From Mitsuokella multacida DSM 20544 (GTDB lineage Bacteria > Bacillota > Negativicutes > Selenomonadales > Selenomonadaceae): DNA of 64,000 nucleotides. Below the pieces are notes generated by a model. That model ran no database searches. It had not been told where the DNA came from and saw only the letters and a program-made list of their open reading frames with translations. The DNA is taken from positions 62,554 through 126,553 of the forward strand of contig NZ_GG697143.2 of assembly GCF_000155955.1 (NCBI RefSeq), written 5' to 3'. Below are positions 5,818 through 35,653 of the stretch, piece after piece. A program made the position numbers and the translations under genes. Each line of letters opens with the position of its first letter. Position 1 is the stretch's first letter.

Positions 5818-7725
5818 TTGTTTACCGCTGGATCATACGATGTCATCGTCATTGGCGCTGGCCATGCCGGCGTGGAGGCGGCGCTGGCCGCCGCGCGCAT
5901 CGGCTGCCGGACGCTTTTGGCGACGCTCTCGATGGATAATATTGCCCTGATGCCCTGCAACCCGTCGGTCGGCGGCCCGGGCAAAGGCCATCTCGTGCGC
6001 GAGCTCGATGCGCTCGGCGGCGAGATGGGCGTCAATGCGGACAAGACCTGCATCCAGTTCCGCATGCTCAACACGGGCAAGGGGCCGGCTGTCCACGCAT
6101 TGCGCGCACAGGCGGACAAGAAGCTCTACCAGTTCACGATGAAGGAGACCTGTGAGAAGACGGAGAACCTCGACGTCAAACAGATCCTCATCACGGACCT
6201 GCTGCTGACCGAGGACAAGAAGGCCGTGCGCGGCGTCCTCGTCGAGACGGGGGAGGTCTACCTCGCGCCGGCCATCATCATGGCGACGGGCACGTATCTC
6301 AGGGGCCGCATCATCGTCGGTGAGCACACCTACAGCGGTGGCCCGAACGGGCAGCGCCCAGCCATGAAGTTCTCGGACTCGCTCAAGGCGGCGGGCATCC
6401 GGCTCATGCGCTTCAAGACGGGCACGCCGGCCCGCGTCGACGCCCGCACGCTCGACTACGAGAAGATGCAGATCCAGCCGGGCGACGAGGAGGCGCGCAA
6501 TTTCTCGTTCATGAGTGACGAGCGGACGCGCGAGCAGGTGCCGTGCTGGCTGACCTACACGAACGAAGCGACGCACAAGATCCTGCGCGACAACATGGAC
6601 CGCGCGCCGATGGCGAACGGCATCATCGAGGGCATCGGCCCGCGTTACTGCCCGTCCATCGAGACGAAGATCCTGCGCTTCCCGGACAAAGACCGCCACC
6701 AGCTGTTCCTCGAGCCGGAGGGCCTGCACACGAATGAAGTCTACGTACAGGGCATGAGCACGAGCATGCCGATGGACGTGCAACTCGCCTTCCTCAAGAC
6801 GATACCGGGCCTCGAGCATGCGCACGTCATGCGCGCGGGCTATGCGATCGAGTACGACTGCATCGACCCGACGCAGCTCAAGCCGACGCTGGAGTTCAAG
6901 GATATCAAGGGCTTCTTCTCGGCAGGGCAGGCCAACGGCACGTCGGGCTATGAGGAGGCGGCAGCGCAGGGCATCATCGCCGGCATCAATGCGGCCATGT
7001 TCATCCAGAAGCGAGAGCCTCTCATTCTCAAGCGTTCGGAGGCTTACATCGGCGTGCTCATCGATGACCTCGTGACGAAGGGCACGAATGAGCCGTACCG
7101 CATCATGACAAGCCGTGCAGAATATCGTCTCCTTTTGCGCCAGGACAATGCCGACCTGCGCCTGACGCCGTACGGCCGTCGCGTCGGCCTCGTCAAGGAC
7201 GATCGCTGGGCGCGTTTCCTCAAGAAGAAAGAGGATATCGAAGCGGCGATGAAGCTGCTCAAGGAGACGAATATCAACCCGAGCCAGGAGACGAACGCCC
7301 GCTTGCAAGAAGCGGGCATCGAGCCCATCAAGAGCGCGCAGCCGCTTGCCGACCTGCTGCGCCGCCAGCAGGTCGACTACGAGAAGCTGCGGCTCGCATA
7401 TCCCGAGCTGCCGGAACTCGCGAAGGAAGTCCGCCAGCAGGTGGAGACCTCCATCCTCTACGAGGGCTATATCAAGAAACAGCTCGAGCAGGTCGCGCAC
7501 ATGGAGAAGCTCGAGGCAAAGCTCCTGCCAGAAGATATTGATTATCAGGACGTGCCTAGCCTGCGCGATGAGGCGCGCGAGAAACTCGCGGCCATCCGCC
7601 CGCGCTCGGTCGGTCAGGCTGGGCGCATCAGCGGTGTCTCGCCGGCCGATGTGTCCGTGCTGCTCGTCTGGCTCGAGCAGCAGAAGCGTCTCCATGATAC
7701 AGCAAAACAGAATGAGGAAGATTGA
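5818..7725 (+). CDS. mnmG: tRNA uridine-5-carboxymethylaminomethyl(34) synthesis enzyme MnmG
   Basis: The FAD-dependent partner of MnmE (also called GidA). Near the N-terminus is the dinucleotide-binding motif [12 protein letters not shown], then the conserved [15 protein letters not shown] and the GTYLRG and [16 protein letters not shown] segments. The C-terminal region includes the helical MnmE-interacting part ending in [20 protein letters not shown]-like sequence, expected for the family. The length of about 635 residues is usual. The start is TTG: codons at 5815 and 5818 are both TTG, and 5818 gives the better 7-nt spacing from AAGGGGG. The stop is 14 nt before the rsmG start. Confidence 0.97.
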
Positions 7726-7739
7726 GAGGGGGAAGAGCA

Positions 7740-8453
7740 ATGTTTCGAGATGAGATGAAGAAAGCAGCGGAGGACTTCGGCCTGACGCTCAGCGAGAACC
7801 AGCTCGCGCAGTTCACGCGCTACTACGAGCTGCTGGTGGAGTGGAATGAGAAAATGAATCTCACTGCCATTACGGAGGAGCATGAAGTTGCTGTCAAGCA
7901 CATGGTCGATTCGCTCTCCGCTTACGATCCGGCCCTCTTTGATGGTGAGATATCGATAATTGATGTCGGAACTGGCGCGGGCTTTCCCGGCCTGCCGCTC
8001 AAGATCTTCTGCCCGCAGGTGCACCTGACGCTCATGGATTCGCTGAATAAGCGCGTCAATTTTCTGCAGACAGTCGTCGATGAACTCGGCCTCGAAGATG
8101 TGGACTGCGTCCATGCGAGAGCAGAGGAGGGGGCGCGCATGAAGAAATACCGCGAGCAGTATGACCTCGCCGTCTCGCGCGCCGTCGCACGCCTGCCAAT
8201 CCTCTGCGAGTACTGCCTGCCATTTGTCAAGCGCGGCGGCCACTTCCTCGCACTCAAGGGCAGGGCTTTTGCTGAGGAAGTCGAGGAAGCGGCGAAAGCC
8301 ATCAAAGTCATGGGCGGCAGCCAGACCGATGTGCGCGAAGTCCACCTGCCCGGCCTTGATGACAAGCGCGCCATCATCACCGTGACGAAGACCATGCCGA
8401 CGCCCAAAGCTTATCCGCGCAAGGCCGGCACACCGGCAAAGAATCCGCTTTAA
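7740..8453 (+). CDS. rsmG: 16S rRNA (guanine(527)-N7)-methyltransferase RsmG
   Basis: RsmG (GidB) methylates G527 of 16S rRNA with S-adenosylmethionine. The 237-residue protein has the family N-terminus (LSENQLAQFTRYYELLVEWNEKMNLTAI) and the SAM-binding motif DVGTGAGFPGLPLKI at about residues 76-90, followed by DSLNKRVNFL and the SRAVA motif. The ATG at 7740 lies 8 nt after GAGAGGGGGAA; the frame is open upstream to 7722, overlapping the end of mnmG, but those residues are not conserved. It is the last gene before a parS-centred palindrome. Confidence 0.96.
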   Translation: MFRDEMKKAAEDFGLTLSENQLAQFTRYYELLVEWNEKMNLTAITEEHEVAVKHMVDSLSAYDPALFDGEISIIDVGTGAGFPGLPLKIFCPQVHLTLMDSLNKRVNFLQTVVDELGLEDVDCVHARAEEGARMKKYREQYDLAVSRAVARLPILCEYCLPFVKRGGHFLALKGRAFAEEVEEAAKAIKVMGGSQTDVREVHLPGLDDKRAIITVTKTMPTPKAYPRKAGTPAKNPL

Positions 8454-8465
8454 TGTATTTTAGAC

Positions 8466-8497
8466 AAAGGGGATGTTTCACGTGAAACATCCCCTTT
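8466..8497. promoter_or_regulatory. parS: parS site 1 embedded in a perfect 32-bp terminator-like palindrome
   Basis: The core TGTTTCACGTGAAACA (8474-8489) is the canonical ParB-binding site. The dyad continues perfectly for 8 more bases on each side (AAAGGGGA/TCCCCTTT) and ends in a T run. The same DNA can therefore serve as a ParB loading site and, when transcribed, as the terminator hairpin for mnmE-mnmG-rsmG. Confidence 0.93.
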
Positions 8498-8524: not shown

Positions 8525-9433
8525 TTGAAGATTTCCTATACCGTAGATGCTGCCCATGACGGCAGGGAACTGCGCCAACTCGTGCGCGCGCCGCTCGGGC
8601 TCTCGGCGAAGCTCTGGAAGCACATCAAGTGGAACGGCACGGTCCTCGTCAATGGGAAGAAGAACGGCGACGCCCGCCTGCGCGTCCATACGGGCGATGA
8701 GCTGACACTGCTCTGGCAAGAAGTATCGTCCGTCGTGCCCGTCGATCTGCCGCTCGACATCCTCTATGAGGACGAAACCTTTCTCGTCGTCAACAAGCCC
8801 GCGGACATGATTGTCCATCCGACGCACCGCGCGGCGCGCGATACGCTCGTCCATGCCGTGGCGGGCTATTTCGAGCGCAGGGGAGAGGCGGCGGGCATCC
8901 ATCCGCTCTACCGGCTCGACCGAGACACAACGGGCATCGTCATCCTCGCCAAATCCGCGCGCATCCAGCACGCGATGACAAAGCATCATGGCCAGATCTA
9001 CCGCGAATACCTGGCACTGGCGCAAGGTCATCTGGACTGTCTAAGTGGTCGAATCGACATGCCAATCGGCCGTGACATCACAAGGGCGAATCACTGGCAG
9101 GTGCGCGCCGATGGCAGGCGCGCCCTGACGGAGTACGAGACCATCGCATCGTGGCCCGCGTATTCCCTGCTCAAGATACATCTGCTGACTGGCCGCACCC
9201 ACCAGATCCGCGTCCACTTCGCCGCCCTCGGCCATCCTCTTTTAGGCGACACAGCCTACGACGGCTCCTGCGATACAATCCCGCGGCAAGCCCTGCACGC
9301 TTGGCGCGTCCACTTCTTCCATCCCGATACCGGCAAAGAGATCCGCATCGAGGCCCCCATTCCCGAAGACATGTGCCGACTCATCGGTTCCGACACTGTT
9401 TCACGTGAAACATTTAAAGAGGAGATAAAATAG
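8525..9433 (+). CDS. RluA-family RNA pseudouridine synthase
   Basis: Converts specific uridines of rRNA or tRNA to pseudouridine. Residues 1-75 form an S4-like RNA-binding region (LRQLVRAPLGLSAKLWKHIK ... GDELTLLW). The catalytic domain begins at about 80 (DILYEDETFLVVNKPADMIVHP) and contains the motif YRLDRDTTGIVILAKS, whose Asp is the nucleophile. GRTHQIRVHFAALGHPLLGD is the family's RluA C-terminal signature. The start is a TTG at 8525 behind AAAGGAAGAA. RluD and RluB-like assignments cannot be separated here, so no symbol is given. Its last codons contain a complete parS site, encoding Val-Ser-Arg-Glu-Thr near residue 295. Confidence 0.92.
   Translation: MKISYTVDAAHDGRELRQLVRAPLGLSAKLWKHIKWNGTVLVNGKKNGDARLRVHTGDELTLLWQEVSSVVPVDLPLDILYEDETFLVVNKPADMIVHPTHRAARDTLVHAVAGYFERRGEAAGIHPLYRLDRDTTGIVILAKSARIQHAMTKHHGQIYREYLALAQGHLDCLSGRIDMPIGRDITRANHWQVRADGRRALTEYETIASWPAYSLLKIHLLTGRTHQIRVHFAALGHPLLGDTAYDGSCDTIPRQALHAWRVHFFHPDTGKEIRIEAPIPEDMCRLIGSDTVSRETFKEEIK
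9397..9412. promoter_or_regulatory. parS: parS site 2, inside the coding end of the pseudouridine synthase gene
   Basis: A perfect TGTTTCACGTGAAACA without any extension of the dyad. It lies in frame within the preceding gene, 21 bp before its stop codon, so the protein tail reads DTVSRETFKEEIK because of the DNA site. Confidence 0.93.
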
Positions 9434-9502
9434 CAAAATAATCTTTGACAGCAAGACTACCGAAATCAATTCGGCATCGATTGCAGAAAGGTTGTGGTTG
9501 TT

Positions 9503-10243
9503 TTGGATACTGCTGTTTGGCAGGCGCATCTCTTACCGGCGCTAGCCATCGGGCTGGCTGCGTTCATGCAGGGCATCACGGGATTTGGGCTCGTGATCAT
9601 CGCGGCGCCGCTGCTCATGATTTTCTACGATCCGCGCGAGACGGTTCTCATGATGTTCGTCGTGGCGCTGCTCACCGGCATCGTGCAGACGTTTCTCGTC
9701 TGGAAGGATGCCCGCTACAAGCTGATCGAGACCATCCTCGTCGGCTACATCGCCGCACAGCCCTTCGGTTTCTGGATCTTCGCGCATTTCTCGGCGAATC
9801 AGTTGAAGCTGCTCGTCAGCACGGTCATCCTGATTTCTCTGTTGCTCATGCAGTTCACGCATCACAGGTTCTCGCTCTGCCGTCGCAACTCCATCCTCAT
9901 GGGATTCCTCGCGGGCATCTGCGGCGTCACGACAGGCATGGCGGGCCCGCCTCTGATTCTCTACTTCGCCTACACCGAGCTGACGCCAGCAGAGCTACGC
10001 GGCACGAGCGTCGTCTTCTTCCTGATCAGCGGCATCATCTCCATCGGTTTCTTCCTGTTCCAGGGCGTGCCGATGTACGCCGCCGCCGTGGAATCGCTCT
10101 ATCTCATCCCAGCCCTCGTCATCGGCCTCCTTCTCGGCCACGCCGTCATCCGCTTCGTCTCCGTCAAGCTCTTCCGCTTCATGATCTTCTTCATGCTCTA
10201 CTTCATCTGTGCCTACATGTTCTACGAACTCGCCGTGCAGTGA
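9503..10243 (+). CDS. TauE/SafE-family sulfite exporter-like membrane permease
   Basis: A 246-residue integral membrane protein. The segment LPALAIGLAAFMQGITGFGLVIIAAPLLM near the N-terminus and the later CGVTTGMAGPPLILYF are the two repeats typical of TauE/SafE permeases (DUF81). About seven to eight TM segments can be counted. The family exports small anions such as sulfite, sulfoacetate or organic acids, but the substrate cannot be read from the sequence. The start is uncertain: TTG at 9503 is 11 nt from AGAAAGG, while GTG at 9494 is only 2 nt away. It stands alone, ending just before a parS-centred palindrome. Confidence 0.85.
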   Translation: MDTAVWQAHLLPALAIGLAAFMQGITGFGLVIIAAPLLMIFYDPRETVLMMFVVALLTGIVQTFLVWKDARYKLIETILVGYIAAQPFGFWIFAHFSANQLKLLVSTVILISLLLMQFTHHRFSLCRRNSILMGFLAGICGVTTGMAGPPLILYFAYTELTPAELRGTSVVFFLISGIISIGFFLFQGVPMYAAAVESLYLIPALVIGLLLGHAVIRFVSVKLFRFMIFFMLYFICAYMFYELAVQ

Positions 10244-10248
10244 AATCA

Positions 10249-10292
10249 AAAATAGGCGTCGATGTTTCACGTGAAACATCGACGCCTATTTT
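10249..10292. promoter_or_regulatory. parS: parS site 3 at the centre of a perfect 44-bp palindrome
   Basis: The core TGTTTCACGTGAAACA (10263-10278) is extended by 14 further perfectly complementary bases on each side, outer arms AAAATAGGCGTCGA and TCGACGCCTATTTT. It separates the convergent permease and deoR genes and would form a bidirectional 22-bp-stem terminator in RNA. It is the longest perfect dyad found in the window. Confidence 0.93.
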
Positions 10293-10297
10293 CGTTT

Positions 10298-11242
10298 TCA
10301 GTTCATTTCTTTTAAGGCGAGGGCTGTATATTGATCGGTGATCAATACATTCATATAACCAGCTTTGAGCGCTGCATGGATGGCCCGGAGCTTTTCTTTG
10401 CCACCGGCAACGAGGATGCGCGTTTCCTTTTTTTGAAATTCATCGAGACGGATGCCGACCGTACGGTTATCGAGCTCTTCATCGACAATCTTTCCGTCGT
10501 CGTCGTAGAAGCGGGAGCAGAGATCGCCAGCAGCCTTCTGGCTCAGGAGCTCGCGGTCTTTTTCGTTGATATAGTAGCCGAGGTGGAAGAGAATGGATTC
10601 ATCTGAGGCTGGACCGACCGTTACGATTGCGATATTCGCTCGTTTGCCCATGTCGAGAATGTTCTTTACGTATTTATCATGCTCGACTAAGCGCTTTACT
10701 TCTATATTGTCGAACATGACAGGAATGGGCAGGAAGATTCCTGTAGTGGAAAAGGCCCTAGCGACAAGCGTGACAATCTCATGCGCATACGTGTTGAGCT
10801 TTGAGTAGCTGATGCCGCCTTTCAACTGTACGACTTGTACATCTTTGACAGGCTTTGTCCTGAGATCCTGGGCCATTTGGTAAAGGGAAGAGCCCCATCC
10901 TACACCGATGATGTCGTGATCCTTGACGATATCGTATAGATATTCAGCGGCTTTCAGACCGATGGCTTTTTTTATTTCTCGGTTATCGTTGAGCGGTGCG
11001 TTTGCTATCTTCACAGTCTTCAGATTGTATTTCTGACACAGTTCATCAGCCAGAGACAGACCCCGTTCGGTAGGATCGATGATCTTGATCTGAACAAAGC
11101 CCCTGTCCTTAGCATATTGCAATAAACGTGAAACAGAAGGTCGCGATATGCCAAGCTCATTGGCTATTTTCTGTTGGCTCATATCGGATTCATAATATAG
11201 TCTGGCAGCATCGATGCTCAGCCGATCTTTATCTTGATCCAT
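10298..11242 (-). CDS. deoR: SorC/DeoR-type sugar-binding transcriptional regulator of the deoxyribose locus
   Basis: A 314-residue regulator. Residues 1-55 hold an HTH (LSIDAARLYY, MSQQKIANELGISRPSVSRL), and the remainder is the sugar-phosphate-sensing SorC domain with DIIGVGWGSSLYQMA and VVQLKGGIS. The length and architecture match B. subtilis DeoR, which responds to deoxyribose-5-phosphate. Start ATG 11242 is preceded by GGGGAGATGAGGAT; the longer frame to 11272 has no better signal. It lies downstream of, and in the same direction as, the deoC-deoK genes, but is separated from them by a strong terminator and has its own promoter. Its ligand is inferred from its neighbours. Confidence 0.87.
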   Translation of the reverse strand: MDQDKDRLSIDAARLYYESDMSQQKIANELGISRPSVSRLLQYAKDRGFVQIKIIDPTERGLSLADELCQKYNLKTVKIANAPLNDNREIKKAIGLKAAEYLYDIVKDHDIIGVGWGSSLYQMAQDLRTKPVKDVQVVQLKGGISYSKLNTYAHEIVTLVARAFSTTGIFLPIPVMFDNIEVKRLVEHDKYVKNILDMGKRANIAIVTVGPASDESILFHLGYYINEKDRELLSQKAAGDLCSRFYDDDGKIVDEELDNRTVGIRLDEFQKKETRILVAGGKEKLRAIHAALKAGYMNVLITDQYTALALKEMN

Positions 11243-11281
11243 ATCCTCATCTCCCCATACATTCCCGGTCAATCTTCTATC

Positions 11282-21351: not shown

Positions 21352-21450
21352 CAAAAAAAGCCGACACAAATCCAGGCTGTGCCCAGACGGTCGGCTCTTC
21401 TTCCCTGTGCTCCCTGTGGTCATCCACTTCCGTCAGTTGCACAGCATCTA
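21352..21450 (-). ncRNA. ZTP (pfl) riboswitch with overlapping terminator
   Basis: Read on the minus strand, the leader contains the pfl hallmarks: AACTGACGGAAGTGG, then ACCACAGGGAGCAC, a short linker, and GCCGACCGTCTGGGCA, which provides the pseudoknot strand and conserved CUGGGC loop. The strand AGCCGAC (21391-21397) is shared with a terminator whose other arm GTCGGCT is followed by seven T residues (21352-21365). Ligand binding would tie up the shared strand and allow transcription of the AICAR transformylase gene. Confidence 0.9.
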
Positions 21451-26416: not shown

Positions 26417-26432
26417 TGTTTCACGTGAAACA
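26417..26432. promoter_or_regulatory. parS: parS site 4, upstream of parA
   Basis: A perfect TGTTTCACGTGAAACA without extended dyad, between the divergent MetH-activation gene and parAB. Confidence 0.95.
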
Positions 26433-26551: not shown

Positions 26552-26642
26552 GATTCTAGCACGCTTTTACAAGGATAGCTGTGCACTTGTTTACTATTGC
26601 AGGACAGAATGGTATGGGAAATCAAAGAAAGTGGTGAAATTC

Positions 26643-27399
<757 letters not shown>

Positions 27400-27410
<11 letters not shown>

Positions 27411-28344
27411 GGGACACGGCGGCCTCGGCAAAGGACTCGGCGCGCTCTTGAAGAACCGCGAGATCACGCCGGCCAAAGACCAGGTGCAGGAAATCGCGGC
27501 CGATGAGATCCGGGCCAACCGCTATCAGCCGCGCCAGAATTTCGACGAGGCGGCGCTCGAGGATCTCAGCGAGTCCATCCGCCAGTACGGCATCCTGCAG
27601 CCCCTGATCGTCCGGCGCCTGCCGGAGAAGGGCTATGAGCTCATCGCGGGTGAGCGCCGCCTGCGCGCCGCCCGCAAAGCAGGACTTGAAAAAGTACCGG
27701 CACTTGTGCGAGAATATAACGATGCAGAGATTAGTGAGATCGCCCTGATCGAGAACATCCAGCGCGAGAACCTCAATATCATCGAGGAGGCAGAGGCCTA
27801 CGCTTTCCTCATGCAGAACTTCCAGCTGACGCAGGAGATGCTCGCGAAGAAGGTCGGCCGCAGCCGCCCGCACATCGCCAACTCGCTGCGCCTCCTGGAG
27901 CTCGCAGAGCCTGTCCAGGACAAGCTCGTCGCAGGTGAACTGCTCATGGGGCAGGCACGGCCGCTGCTCGCGCTCAAGGATGAGGCACTGCAGGTCAAGG
28001 CAGCGGCGCACATCCTCGCGGAGCACCTGTCCTCGCGCCAGGCGGAAGAACTCGTGCGCCGACTGCTCGATGACCCCGCCTATCTCGATGCAGAGGAGAG
28101 CAGGCCGGAAGACGAGTCCGCAGAGGCTCAGGAAACGCAGGAAGCTCAGCAGGATGCATTCTATCAGGATGCTGTGGGCCGGCTCAACGAGTACCTCGGC
28201 ACGAAGGTGCGCATCCGCCCCGGCAAGAAAAAGAGCCGCATTGAGATCGAGTTCTACTCCGAAGACGACCTCGAGCGCCTGCTCGAGCTTCTCGAGGGGC
28301 AGAAGGACTCACATCCGACTCCGCCCGAGCACTTCTCTGTCTGA
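27400..28344 (+). CDS. parB: Chromosome partitioning protein ParB (Spo0J)
   Basis: A CTP-dependent DNA clamp that loads at parS, slides along flanking DNA and recruits SMC. The 314 residues contain the N-terminal KGLGALL ParA-stimulating region, the CTPase domain with [26 protein letters not shown] (GERR phosphate motif, about residues 82-97) and [10 protein letters not shown], and the HTH ([24 protein letters not shown]) that reads parS. A Glu/Gln-rich linker ([19 protein letters not shown]) precedes the C-terminal dimerisation domain. Six perfect parS sites in this window provide its substrate. Confidence 0.96.
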
Positions 28345-28356
28345 TCTTGACGGCAT

Positions 28357-28372
28357 TGTTTCACGTGAAACA
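28357..28372. promoter_or_regulatory. parS: parS site 5, directly after parB
   Basis: A perfect TGTTTCACGTGAAACA starting 13 bp beyond the parB stop. TGACG (28348-28352) and CGTCA (28374-28378) add an imperfect outer dyad. Confidence 0.95.
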
Positions 28373-33236: not shown

Positions 33237-35573
33237 ATGTTTAAGATAGATACCATGAAAGGGCATGAACGCATGTCCACCCAGGACCTGCTCCTGGCCA
33301 TCGGCGAAGCCGTCAAGCAGGGCGAGACGGATTTTGAGATCAAGGCATCCGGTCAGCACGACATCGGCGGTCCGCTCTGGCATCCGGAAGGCAAGAAGCT
33401 GCACTTCCACGTCTGGAACGCCGGTCAGCGCACGGGTTCGATGTGCCTGCCGGGCACGGAGATTGTCATCGAGGAGTCGACGTCGGCTGACGTCGGCTGG
33501 CTCAATGCCGGCGGCATCATCACGGTCAAGTGCGATGCCGGCGATACGGCGGGCCACTGCTCGTCGGGCGGCAAGATCTTCATCGGCGGCCGCGGCGGCA
33601 CGCGCACGGGCTCGCTGATGAAGCACGACCCGCTCTATGAGGAGCCGGAGCTCTGGATCCTCAAGAATGTCGGCTCGTTCTCGTTCGAGTTCATGGGCGG
33701 CGGCAAGGCCGTCGTCTGCGGCTACGACAGCGCGGAGTTCGACTCGGTCCTCGGCGAGCGCGCCTGTGTCGGTATGGTCGGCGGCACGGTCTATGTGCGC
33801 GGCCCGATCGGCACGCATCCGGCTGACATCATCTGCTCCGCGCTCGACGAGGATGACATCGCCTTCCTCGCGGGGGGCATGGATGACTTCCTCGCGCACA
33901 TCGAGCGCCCGGAGCTCAAGGCAGAGCTCACCAACTGGAGCGAGTGGCACAAGCTGCGCCCGCTGACGGCTGCGGAGCGCAAGCCGAAACCAGCGCCGGA
34001 CCTCCATTCCTTCCGCCTGCACGAGTGGGTCAAGGGCGGCATCTTCTCGGATGTCGCACACGATGACTTCGCGGTCCACAATACGATCACGCACGGCCTC
34101 TACCGCCTGCGCGTGCCGAGCTGGGACAATGCGAAGTACGCAGCACCGTGCGAATTCAACTGTCCGACGGGCATCCCGACGCAGCTGCGCTACAAGTACA
34201 TCCGCAACGGCGAGCTCGACAAGGCCATCCAGCTCGAGCTCGACTACACGCCGTTCCCGGGCTGCGTCTGCGGCTCTGTCTGCCCGAACCCCTGCATGGA
34301 TGCCTGCACGCGCGGCACGATCGATGAGCCAATCCAGATCGGCGACCTCGGCTACAGCTCCGCCTTTGCGAAGGTCGAGCCGCCGAAGGCGAAGACGGGC
34401 AAGAAGATCGGCATCATCGGCGGCGGCGTCGCCGGTCTCTCGACGGCCTGGCAGCTCGCCCGCAAGGGCCATGATGTCACGGTCTACGACGATGCCGACC
34501 ACATCGGCGGCAAGCTCGAGCAGGTCATCCCGCGCGGACGTCTCTCGCACGAGCTGCTCGAGTCGGAGCTCAAGCGCATCGAGAGCGTCGGCGTCAAGTT
34601 CGTCGAGGGATGCAAGGTCGACCGCGAGAAGTTCGACAAGATCCGCGAAGCGAGCGACGCCGTCGTCGTCGCGACGGGCGGCACCAAGTCCCGCTACTTC
34701 CCGTGGGAGGGTGTCGAGCGCCTGACGATGGGCCTCGAGTACCTCAAGGCCATCAACCGCGGCGAGCATCCGAAGACGGGCAAGAAAGTCGTCGTCATCG
34801 GCGCCGGCAACTCCGGCATGGACACGTGCCGCGGCGCCTACGAGATGGGCGCGGAGTCGGTCATCGCTGTCGATGTCCAGAAGCCGGCTGCTTTCCAGAA
34901 GGAAATCGCCTACTTCGAGGGCCTCGGCGGCAAGATCGTCTGGCCGTTCTTCACGAGCAAGATCACGCCGGAAGGTGTCTACGGCAATGACGGCCGCTTC
35001 ATCGAAGCCGACCAGGTTATCGTCTCCATCGGCGAGGCGCCAGTCCTCGACTTCCTGCCGGAGGATGAGGGCATCGAGTACTTCCGCAAGAGCTGGCTCG
35101 TGCCGAAGAAAGACCTCTCCATCATGGACGGCGTCTTCACGGCCGGCGACACGATCAAACCGGGCCGCCTGACGGATGCCATCGGCAGCGGCCGAAAGGC
35201 AGCCTGGTACGTCGACCAGTACGTCATGGGCAAAGAGTACAAGGCTTTCCCCGAGAAGAAGCAGGTCCCGGCCGACCGTCTCTCGAAGGCCTACTTCGAG
35301 AAGTGCCACCACTGCGAGCTCGGCGACCCGGTCAGCGACTACAAGCGCTGCGTGAGCTGCGGCACCTGCCGCGACTGCAAGATGTGCCTTGAATCCTGCC
35401 CGGAGAAGGCCATCAACCGCATCGAGCACGAGGACGGCACGATCGAGTACACGAGTGACCCGAACCGCTGCATCGGCTGCGGCATCTGCGCCGGCGTCTG
35501 CCCGTGCGGCGTCTGGACGATCCAGGACAACCCAGAGAAGATTCCGATGTACTCTACGGGTGCCAAAGCCTGA
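33237..35573 (+). CDS. Glutamate synthase GXGXG domain fused to FAD/NAD(P)H oxidoreductase (GltD-like) with C-terminal ferredoxin
   Basis: A 778-residue fusion that completes the split glutamate synthase. Residues 20-240 form the GXGXG beta-helix normally at the C-terminus of GltB (GGIITVKCDAGDTAGHCSSGG, GGRGGTRTGSLM). The second part is the small subunit: Cys clusters PCEFNCPTGIP and PGCVCGSVCPNPCMDACTRG, FAD motif KIGIIGGGVAGLSTAWQLA (about 395), NAD(P)H motif VVVIGAGNSGMD (about 520) and AGDTIKPGR. Two 4Fe-4S motifs at the end (CVSCGTCRDCKMCLESCP, CIGCGICAGVCPCG) suggest electron exchange with ferredoxin. ATG 33237 follows GCAGGAGGAGAGC. Confidence 0.9.
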   Translation: MFKIDTMKGHERMSTQDLLLAIGEAVKQGETDFEIKASGQHDIGGPLWHPEGKKLHFHVWNAGQRTGSMCLPGTEIVIEESTSADVGWLNAGGIITVKCDAGDTAGHCSSGGKIFIGGRGGTRTGSLMKHDPLYEEPELWILKNVGSFSFEFMGGGKAVVCGYDSAEFDSVLGERACVGMVGGTVYVRGPIGTHPADIICSALDEDDIAFLAGGMDDFLAHIERPELKAELTNWSEWHKLRPLTAAERKPKPAPDLHSFRLHEWVKGGIFSDVAHDDFAVHNTITHGLYRLRVPSWDNAKYAAPCEFNCPTGIPTQLRYKYIRNGELDKAIQLELDYTPFPGCVCGSVCPNPCMDACTRGTIDEPIQIGDLGYSSAFAKVEPPKAKTGKKIGIIGGGVAGLSTAWQLARKGHDVTVYDDADHIGGKLEQVIPRGRLSHELLESELKRIESVGVKFVEGCKVDREKFDKIREASDAVVVATGGTKSRYFPWEGVERLTMGLEYLKAINRGEHPKTGKKVVVIGAGNSGMDTCRGAYEMGAESVIAVDVQKPAAFQKEIAYFEGLGGKIVWPFFTSKITPEGVYGNDGRFIEADQVIVSIGEAPVLDFLPEDEGIEYFRKSWLVPKKDLSIMDGVFTAGDTIKPGRLTDAIGSGRKAAWYVDQYVMGKEYKAFPEKKQVPADRLSKAYFEKCHHCELGDPVSDYKRCVSCGTCRDCKMCLESCPEKAINRIEHEDGTIEYTSDPNRCIGCGICAGVCPCGVWTIQDNPEKIPMYSTGAKA

Positions 35574-35597: not shown

Positions 35598-35638
35598 AAA
35601 AATCAGCCTTTCCACTGCGACGTGGAAAGGCTGATTTT
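35598..35638. terminator. Bidirectional terminator of glutamate synthase and MATE genes
   Basis: AAAATCAGCCTTTCCAC and GTGGAAAGGCTGATTTT form a perfect 17-bp stem with a 7-nt loop. Its last T is the first base of parS 6. Confidence 0.88.
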
Positions 35639-35653
35639 GTTTCACGTGAAACA
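35638..35653. promoter_or_regulatory. parS: parS site 6, abutting a terminator
   Basis: A perfect TGTTTCACGTGAAACA between the convergent glutamate synthase and MATE genes. It is the most distal parS seen, about 34 kb from oriC. Confidence 0.95.

Follow-up and report, generated by a model that had tools for sequence, protein, structure and literature searches.

Chromosomal parS sites within predicted intrinsic terminators in Mitsuokella multacida and in unrelated bacteria

The chromosomal parS site, a perfect palindrome of 16 bp, is the loading site for ParB/Spo0J in the ParABS system, and has so far been regarded as a signal that acts in DNA alone, at one position or another within the origin region. 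The main survey of parS sites is reportedly that of Livny and colleagues. In a search of titles and abstracts no report of parS in terminators was found, an earlier mention in Livny et al. 2007 being possible, and the word ‘terminator’ is absent from a 2020 review of ParB. The sites described below resemble known chromosomal parS in their exact match to the consensus TGTTTCACGTGAAACA, their location near parAB and their occurrence as multiple copies in one region. They differ in that parS, a DNA site only in the literature consulted, here also forms the predicted apex of a terminator. With intrinsic and bidirectional terminators they share a stable hairpin at the gene 3' end, a T-rich 3' arm and compensatory changes in the arms; here, however, an invariant protein-binding site makes up both apex and loop, and the stems are long and perfectly palindromic. 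Template switching makes perfect hairpins (PMC8794818), which have similarly long, perfect arms and multi-base compensatory changes, whereas in the present case a palindrome that binds protein would act as the seed and the switch event is one that we infer. parS and terminators are each of a known kind, and it is their systematic combination that appears to be new.

parS sites and palindromes of the M. multacida window

The window, the whole 64-kb stretch of M. multacida DSM 20544 DNA analysed here, contains six exact parS 16-mers, against 0.09 expected in a consensus search allowing up to 3 mismatches. They constitute the complete set for the 2.58-Mb genome, and all lie within 28 kb, around parA-parB. 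The sites and the genes near them are as follows (strand given where assigned).

7722..8453, + strand: rsmG (TIGR00138)
8466..8497, + strand: perfect 32-bp palindrome, AAAGGGGA-parS-TCCCCTTT, a terminator-like hairpin with the tail TGCTTTT
8474..8489: parS core TGTTTCACGTGAAACA, exact consensus match, centre of the 32-bp palindrome
8525..9433, + strand: RluA-family pseudouridine synthase (TIGR00005)
9397..9412: parS without extension, within the 3' end of the RluA-family gene
9494..10243, + strand: TauE/SafE-family transporter (PF01925), ending just 5' of the 44-bp palindrome
10249..10292: perfect 44-bp palindrome, a bidirectional terminator-like hairpin with convergent genes on either side
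10263..10278: parS core, exact match, centre of the 44-bp palindrome
10298..11272, - strand: DeoR-type (SorC-family) regulator (NF053881), convergent to the transporter
26417..26432: parS without extension, in a divergent spacer upstream of parA
26634..27410, + strand: parA (soj), matching ParA-type families
27400..28344, + strand: parB/noc-family clamp protein (TIGR00180, E 2e-55)
28357..28372: parS without extension in this host, 12 nt past the parB stop
33237..35573: oxidoreductase gene, upstream of the hairpin at 35599-35638
35599..35638, + strand: terminator-like hairpin with a 17-bp stem, 3' of the oxidoreductase gene, its U-tract being the TGTTTC of parS
35638..35653: parS core adjoining that hairpin, exact match

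The longest perfect palindromes in the 64 kb are the 44-bp and 32-bp ones centred on parS, the next longest measuring 20 bp. The 32-bp palindrome starts 12 nt past the rsmG stop, and the two convergent genes end about 5 nt from either edge of the 44-bp palindrome; a palindrome scan confirmed both elements as a preceding sequence-only reading had described them. The same reading had placed the parS at 35638 against a terminator with a 17-bp stem, which is borne out by the pairing of 35599-35615 with 35622-35638 and by the predicted fold (-27.6 kcal/mol). The final base of this stem is the first T of parS, with the stem running directly into the T-rich TGTTTC. Predicted RNA folds for the two palindromes were likewise stable, with -22.1 kcal/mol (z -5.6) for 8466-8497 and -31.4 and -35.0 kcal/mol for the + and - strands of 10249-10292; relative to shuffled sequence, the z values of the three hairpins ranged from -5.6 to -9.9. 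Both palindromes pass a simple terminator consensus scan on the + strand.

The position 3' of parB frequently carries a palindrome in relatives, and none is present at 28357 in the host. On the parB/noc-family protein the Noc model TIGR04285 scored below its cut-off. Elsewhere in the window, a ZMP/ZTP riboswitch lies at 21374-21450 (- strand), and positions 1436-1455 hold a 20-bp palindrome of facing DnaA-type boxes, TTATCCACAGCTGTGGATAA. A longer palindrome of this type, 54 bp, perfect and with two facing DnaA-type boxes, was seen in a divergent spacer of another sequence (L146:14028-14081).

Extended parS palindromes across bacteria

parS sites were collected from 80 Negativicutes regions of at most 20 kb each, picked because they contain parS and distributed, for the most part, across genera, the Negativicutes label being taken over from the initial sequence-only reading. 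Gene context outside the window relies on the calls of a simple codon-model caller. A site was counted as extended if perfect pairing continued beyond the core for 5 or more pairs on each side, and the null was generated by re-pairing flanks between sites. By this definition 38 of 171 non-redundant sites were extended, compared with a mean of 1.27 and a maximum of 7 in 2000 re-pairings, in agreement with the low chance probability that had been ascribed to such extensions. The arm-length distribution of this sample rises to a second peak at 7-17 pairs.

The excess extends well beyond this sample. In a named cross-phylum sample, 17 of 128 parS sites were extended (0.85 expected), among them sites in Streptomyces, Actinomadura, Lachnospiraceae, other Clostridia and Paceibacterota. 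When tallied by group, the extended sites numbered 37/165 in Negativicutes, 10/47 in Clostridia, 16/68 in Actinomycetes, 15/130 in the mixed set and 1/12 in Bacilli, the excess being present in each group sampled but Bacilli, which contributed just 12 sites. Perfect palindromes of at least 24 bp in 1.44 Mb of Negativicutes DNA comprised 47 centred on parS and 7 others, a count that shows parS to be special in these regions and that is not a fair comparison, because parS-centred palindromes begin with a 16-bp seed. Many parS sites have no extension at all.

Several other repeats and sites related to parS were observed. Exact parS pairs 130-132 bp apart, flanked by a common TTTTCAGGTTATGTTC motif, occur in many spacers of one genus (genomes G008, G071 and G083; L463:816-963, L464:1190-1337, L465:1253-1399, L466:940-1086, L469:1219-1366 and L474:1340-1485) and resemble a dispersed repeat with parS at its borders; in G008, 55 sites within 2 mismatches of parS are scattered across many contigs. 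At L470:1107-1244 (G046) a unit of about 41 bp that contains an exact parS is repeated in tandem. A parS-like site, TGTTTCACGTGGAACA, lies inside the parB/noc gene at the same place in many families (L162:8391, L161:8992, L170:8774 and others). At L157:2344-2377 a perfect 34-bp palindrome is centred on ATTTCCCGGGAAAT, which resembles the known Noc site, another clamp-protein site with extended arms.

Pairing, polarity and placement of the arms

Pairing in the arms is kept as their letters change. At 27 sites directly 3' of parB/noc, chosen regardless of extension, covariation between the arms was 0.358, compared with 0.152 (sd 0.019) in shuffled data; 0 of 500 shuffles reached this value, and controls with slid partners gave at most 0.18. 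After rsmG the arms, read outward from the core, are AGGGGAAA in the host and ACGGGGC in the sister species (G001), with three pairs altered on both sides and pairing retained. The compensatory changes for which the sequence-only reading had pointed to relatives are found, and its contrary case, a kept core with arms that are not conserved, describes the arm letters and not their pairing. At the end of the oxidoreductase gene, four genomes of at least two genera retain parS, and the hairpin stands before it in the host and the sister species (G001, L188), around it in G108 and after it in G017. No counterpart of the 44-bp site at 10249-10292 was found in the two closest genomes, so this site may be recent.

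Four lines of evidence point to a role in RNA: avoidance of genes, T polarity of the 3' arm, hairpins abutting parS, and polarity in convergent spacers. Inside genes hardly any parS sites are extended (2/87, versus 63/255 in tandem and convergent spacers; P 4e-7). The outer 3' arm of extended palindromes has more T than A in 39 sites and more A than T in 10 (P 4e-5), with T equal to A in the flanks of unextended sites. In Negativicutes the outer arms are T-rich at the 3' end in 22 sites to 1, and outside Negativicutes the ratio of 17 to 9 is not significant. Convergent spacers, which need termination on both strands, show this polarity most strongly (T 28, A 2, Actinomycetes left out). Furthermore, 19 hairpins that do not contain parS end 0-4 nt from it, compared with 2.4 in shuffles.

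Other measures bear on orientation and spacing. In tandem spacers T content did not differ between sense and antisense (16 versus 18 sites; T in at least 5 of 9 positions at 25 sense and 18 antisense of 40 sites), which fits bidirectional terminators without proving them. The distance from tandem-spacer parS to the stop codon has a median of 27 nt for extended and unextended sites alike. Divergent spacers are moderately depleted in parS (0.67 of the length expectation, versus 1.13 for convergent and tandem spacers), and 10 of their 53 sites are extended, not far below the rate in the other spacers, or 6 of 49 without the genus g61 (P 0.09). In g61, and in this genus only, two to three parS palindromes with arms of 10-13 pairs and no T tract lie in a long spacer upstream of parA (L140:9080-9334, L141:8164-8270, L142:13148-13407); these are not ordinary terminators. 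Internal arm mismatches number only 6, too few for a comparison of G-U with A-C. As operator controls, the LexA-type site CGAACATATGTTCG gave 1 site in 61 Bacilli, too few for arm statistics, and the PurR-type site ACGCAAACGTTTGCGT gave 0 sites in 124 Gammaproteobacteria. The proposal that the sites are dual-purpose is partly supported: its structural side is largely right, with features of terminator and parS found together, kept pairing and generality, and the g61 palindromes without T tracts and the similar T content of sense and antisense speak on the other side.

Origin and function of the arms

parS is commonly incorporated in predicted intrinsic terminators, in this window and in many unrelated bacteria. 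The reading that we prefer, at a probability of about three in four, is that the core serves in double-stranded DNA as the ParB loading site and in RNA as the apex of a terminator, its arms perhaps having been made by template switching and retained by selection for termination. The RNA hairpin would be topped by six pairs, UGUUUC/GAAACA, closing the loop ACGU, and the flanking arms would extend it into an intrinsic terminator, bidirectional where genes converge. In an alternative arrangement a separate terminator hairpin would stop exactly at parS, whose T-rich start would supply the U-tract. Being already a perfect palindrome, parS could serve as a terminator apex without further change and could also seed template switching, by which one flank may be rewritten to the reverse complement of the opposite flank, giving long, perfect arms in a single step. 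Arms arising at gene 3' ends would provide a strong terminator and be retained; elsewhere they may persist neutrally, as in g61. Creation by template switching with retention by termination would account for the perfection of the arms, the free change of their letters, their polarity and the exceptions.

A version of this history that we regard as unlikely dispenses with selection: parS would form a hairpin in single-stranded DNA at replication, and template switching would perfect and lengthen its arms as a mutational by-product. The mechanism is established (PMC8794818, PMC7202029), the arms are strikingly perfect, and both the long g61 palindromes lacking T tracts and the similar extension of the Noc-box-like and DnaA-box palindromes agree with it. 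However, it does not lead one to expect the terminator-like polarity in Negativicutes, nor hairpins that adjoin parS without containing it, nor pairing that persists from family to family at a single gene end, after parB/noc, nor hairpins differently placed at the conserved end of the oxidoreductase gene. The g61 palindromes, in their divergent spacers, have also to be set on the side of a role in DNA, whereby the long arms would act in cruciform extrusion or in ParB/SMC loading; the perfection of both strands and the similar T content of sense and antisense are consistent with this. Nevertheless the T/A polarity has no reason at the DNA level, the majority of parS sites do without arms, and the free variation of the arm letters argues against sequence-specific contact, so we consider such a role improbable.

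Mere crowding, by which parS and terminators would be neighbours because they share short spacers, is the least probable account, and a very doubtful one. The frequency of parS in tandem spacers is close to that predicted from spacer length, and tandem parS lies equally near the stop codon whether extended or not. Crowding cannot, however, yield reverse-complementary arms centred on parS, and hairpin edges are concentrated within 0-4 nt of the site. It is therefore contradicted for the palindromes, and may explain part of the abutting class.

Returning to the reading of parS as terminator apex, a benefit to ParB is also conceivable, in the form of the shielding of its clamps from RNA polymerase that the sequence-only reading put forward. 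RNA polymerase has been discussed as an obstacle to ParB spreading (PMC9242446), which makes protection of the loading site reasonable. The wider proposal, that parS palindromes are a cross-phylum hybrid of terminator and centromere because ParB clamps load and slide best where RNA polymerase stops, with template switching on the parS palindrome as their seed, is tentative, and we would sooner doubt than adopt it.

If many parS sites are also terminators, the placement of sites, the limits of ParB spreading and the local gene ends become linked. Deletion of a parS that doubles as a terminator may then give read-through, and the resulting phenotypes could be partly transcriptional. What fixes the positions of parS would, if this is true, become testable by breaking the arms and leaving the core untouched.
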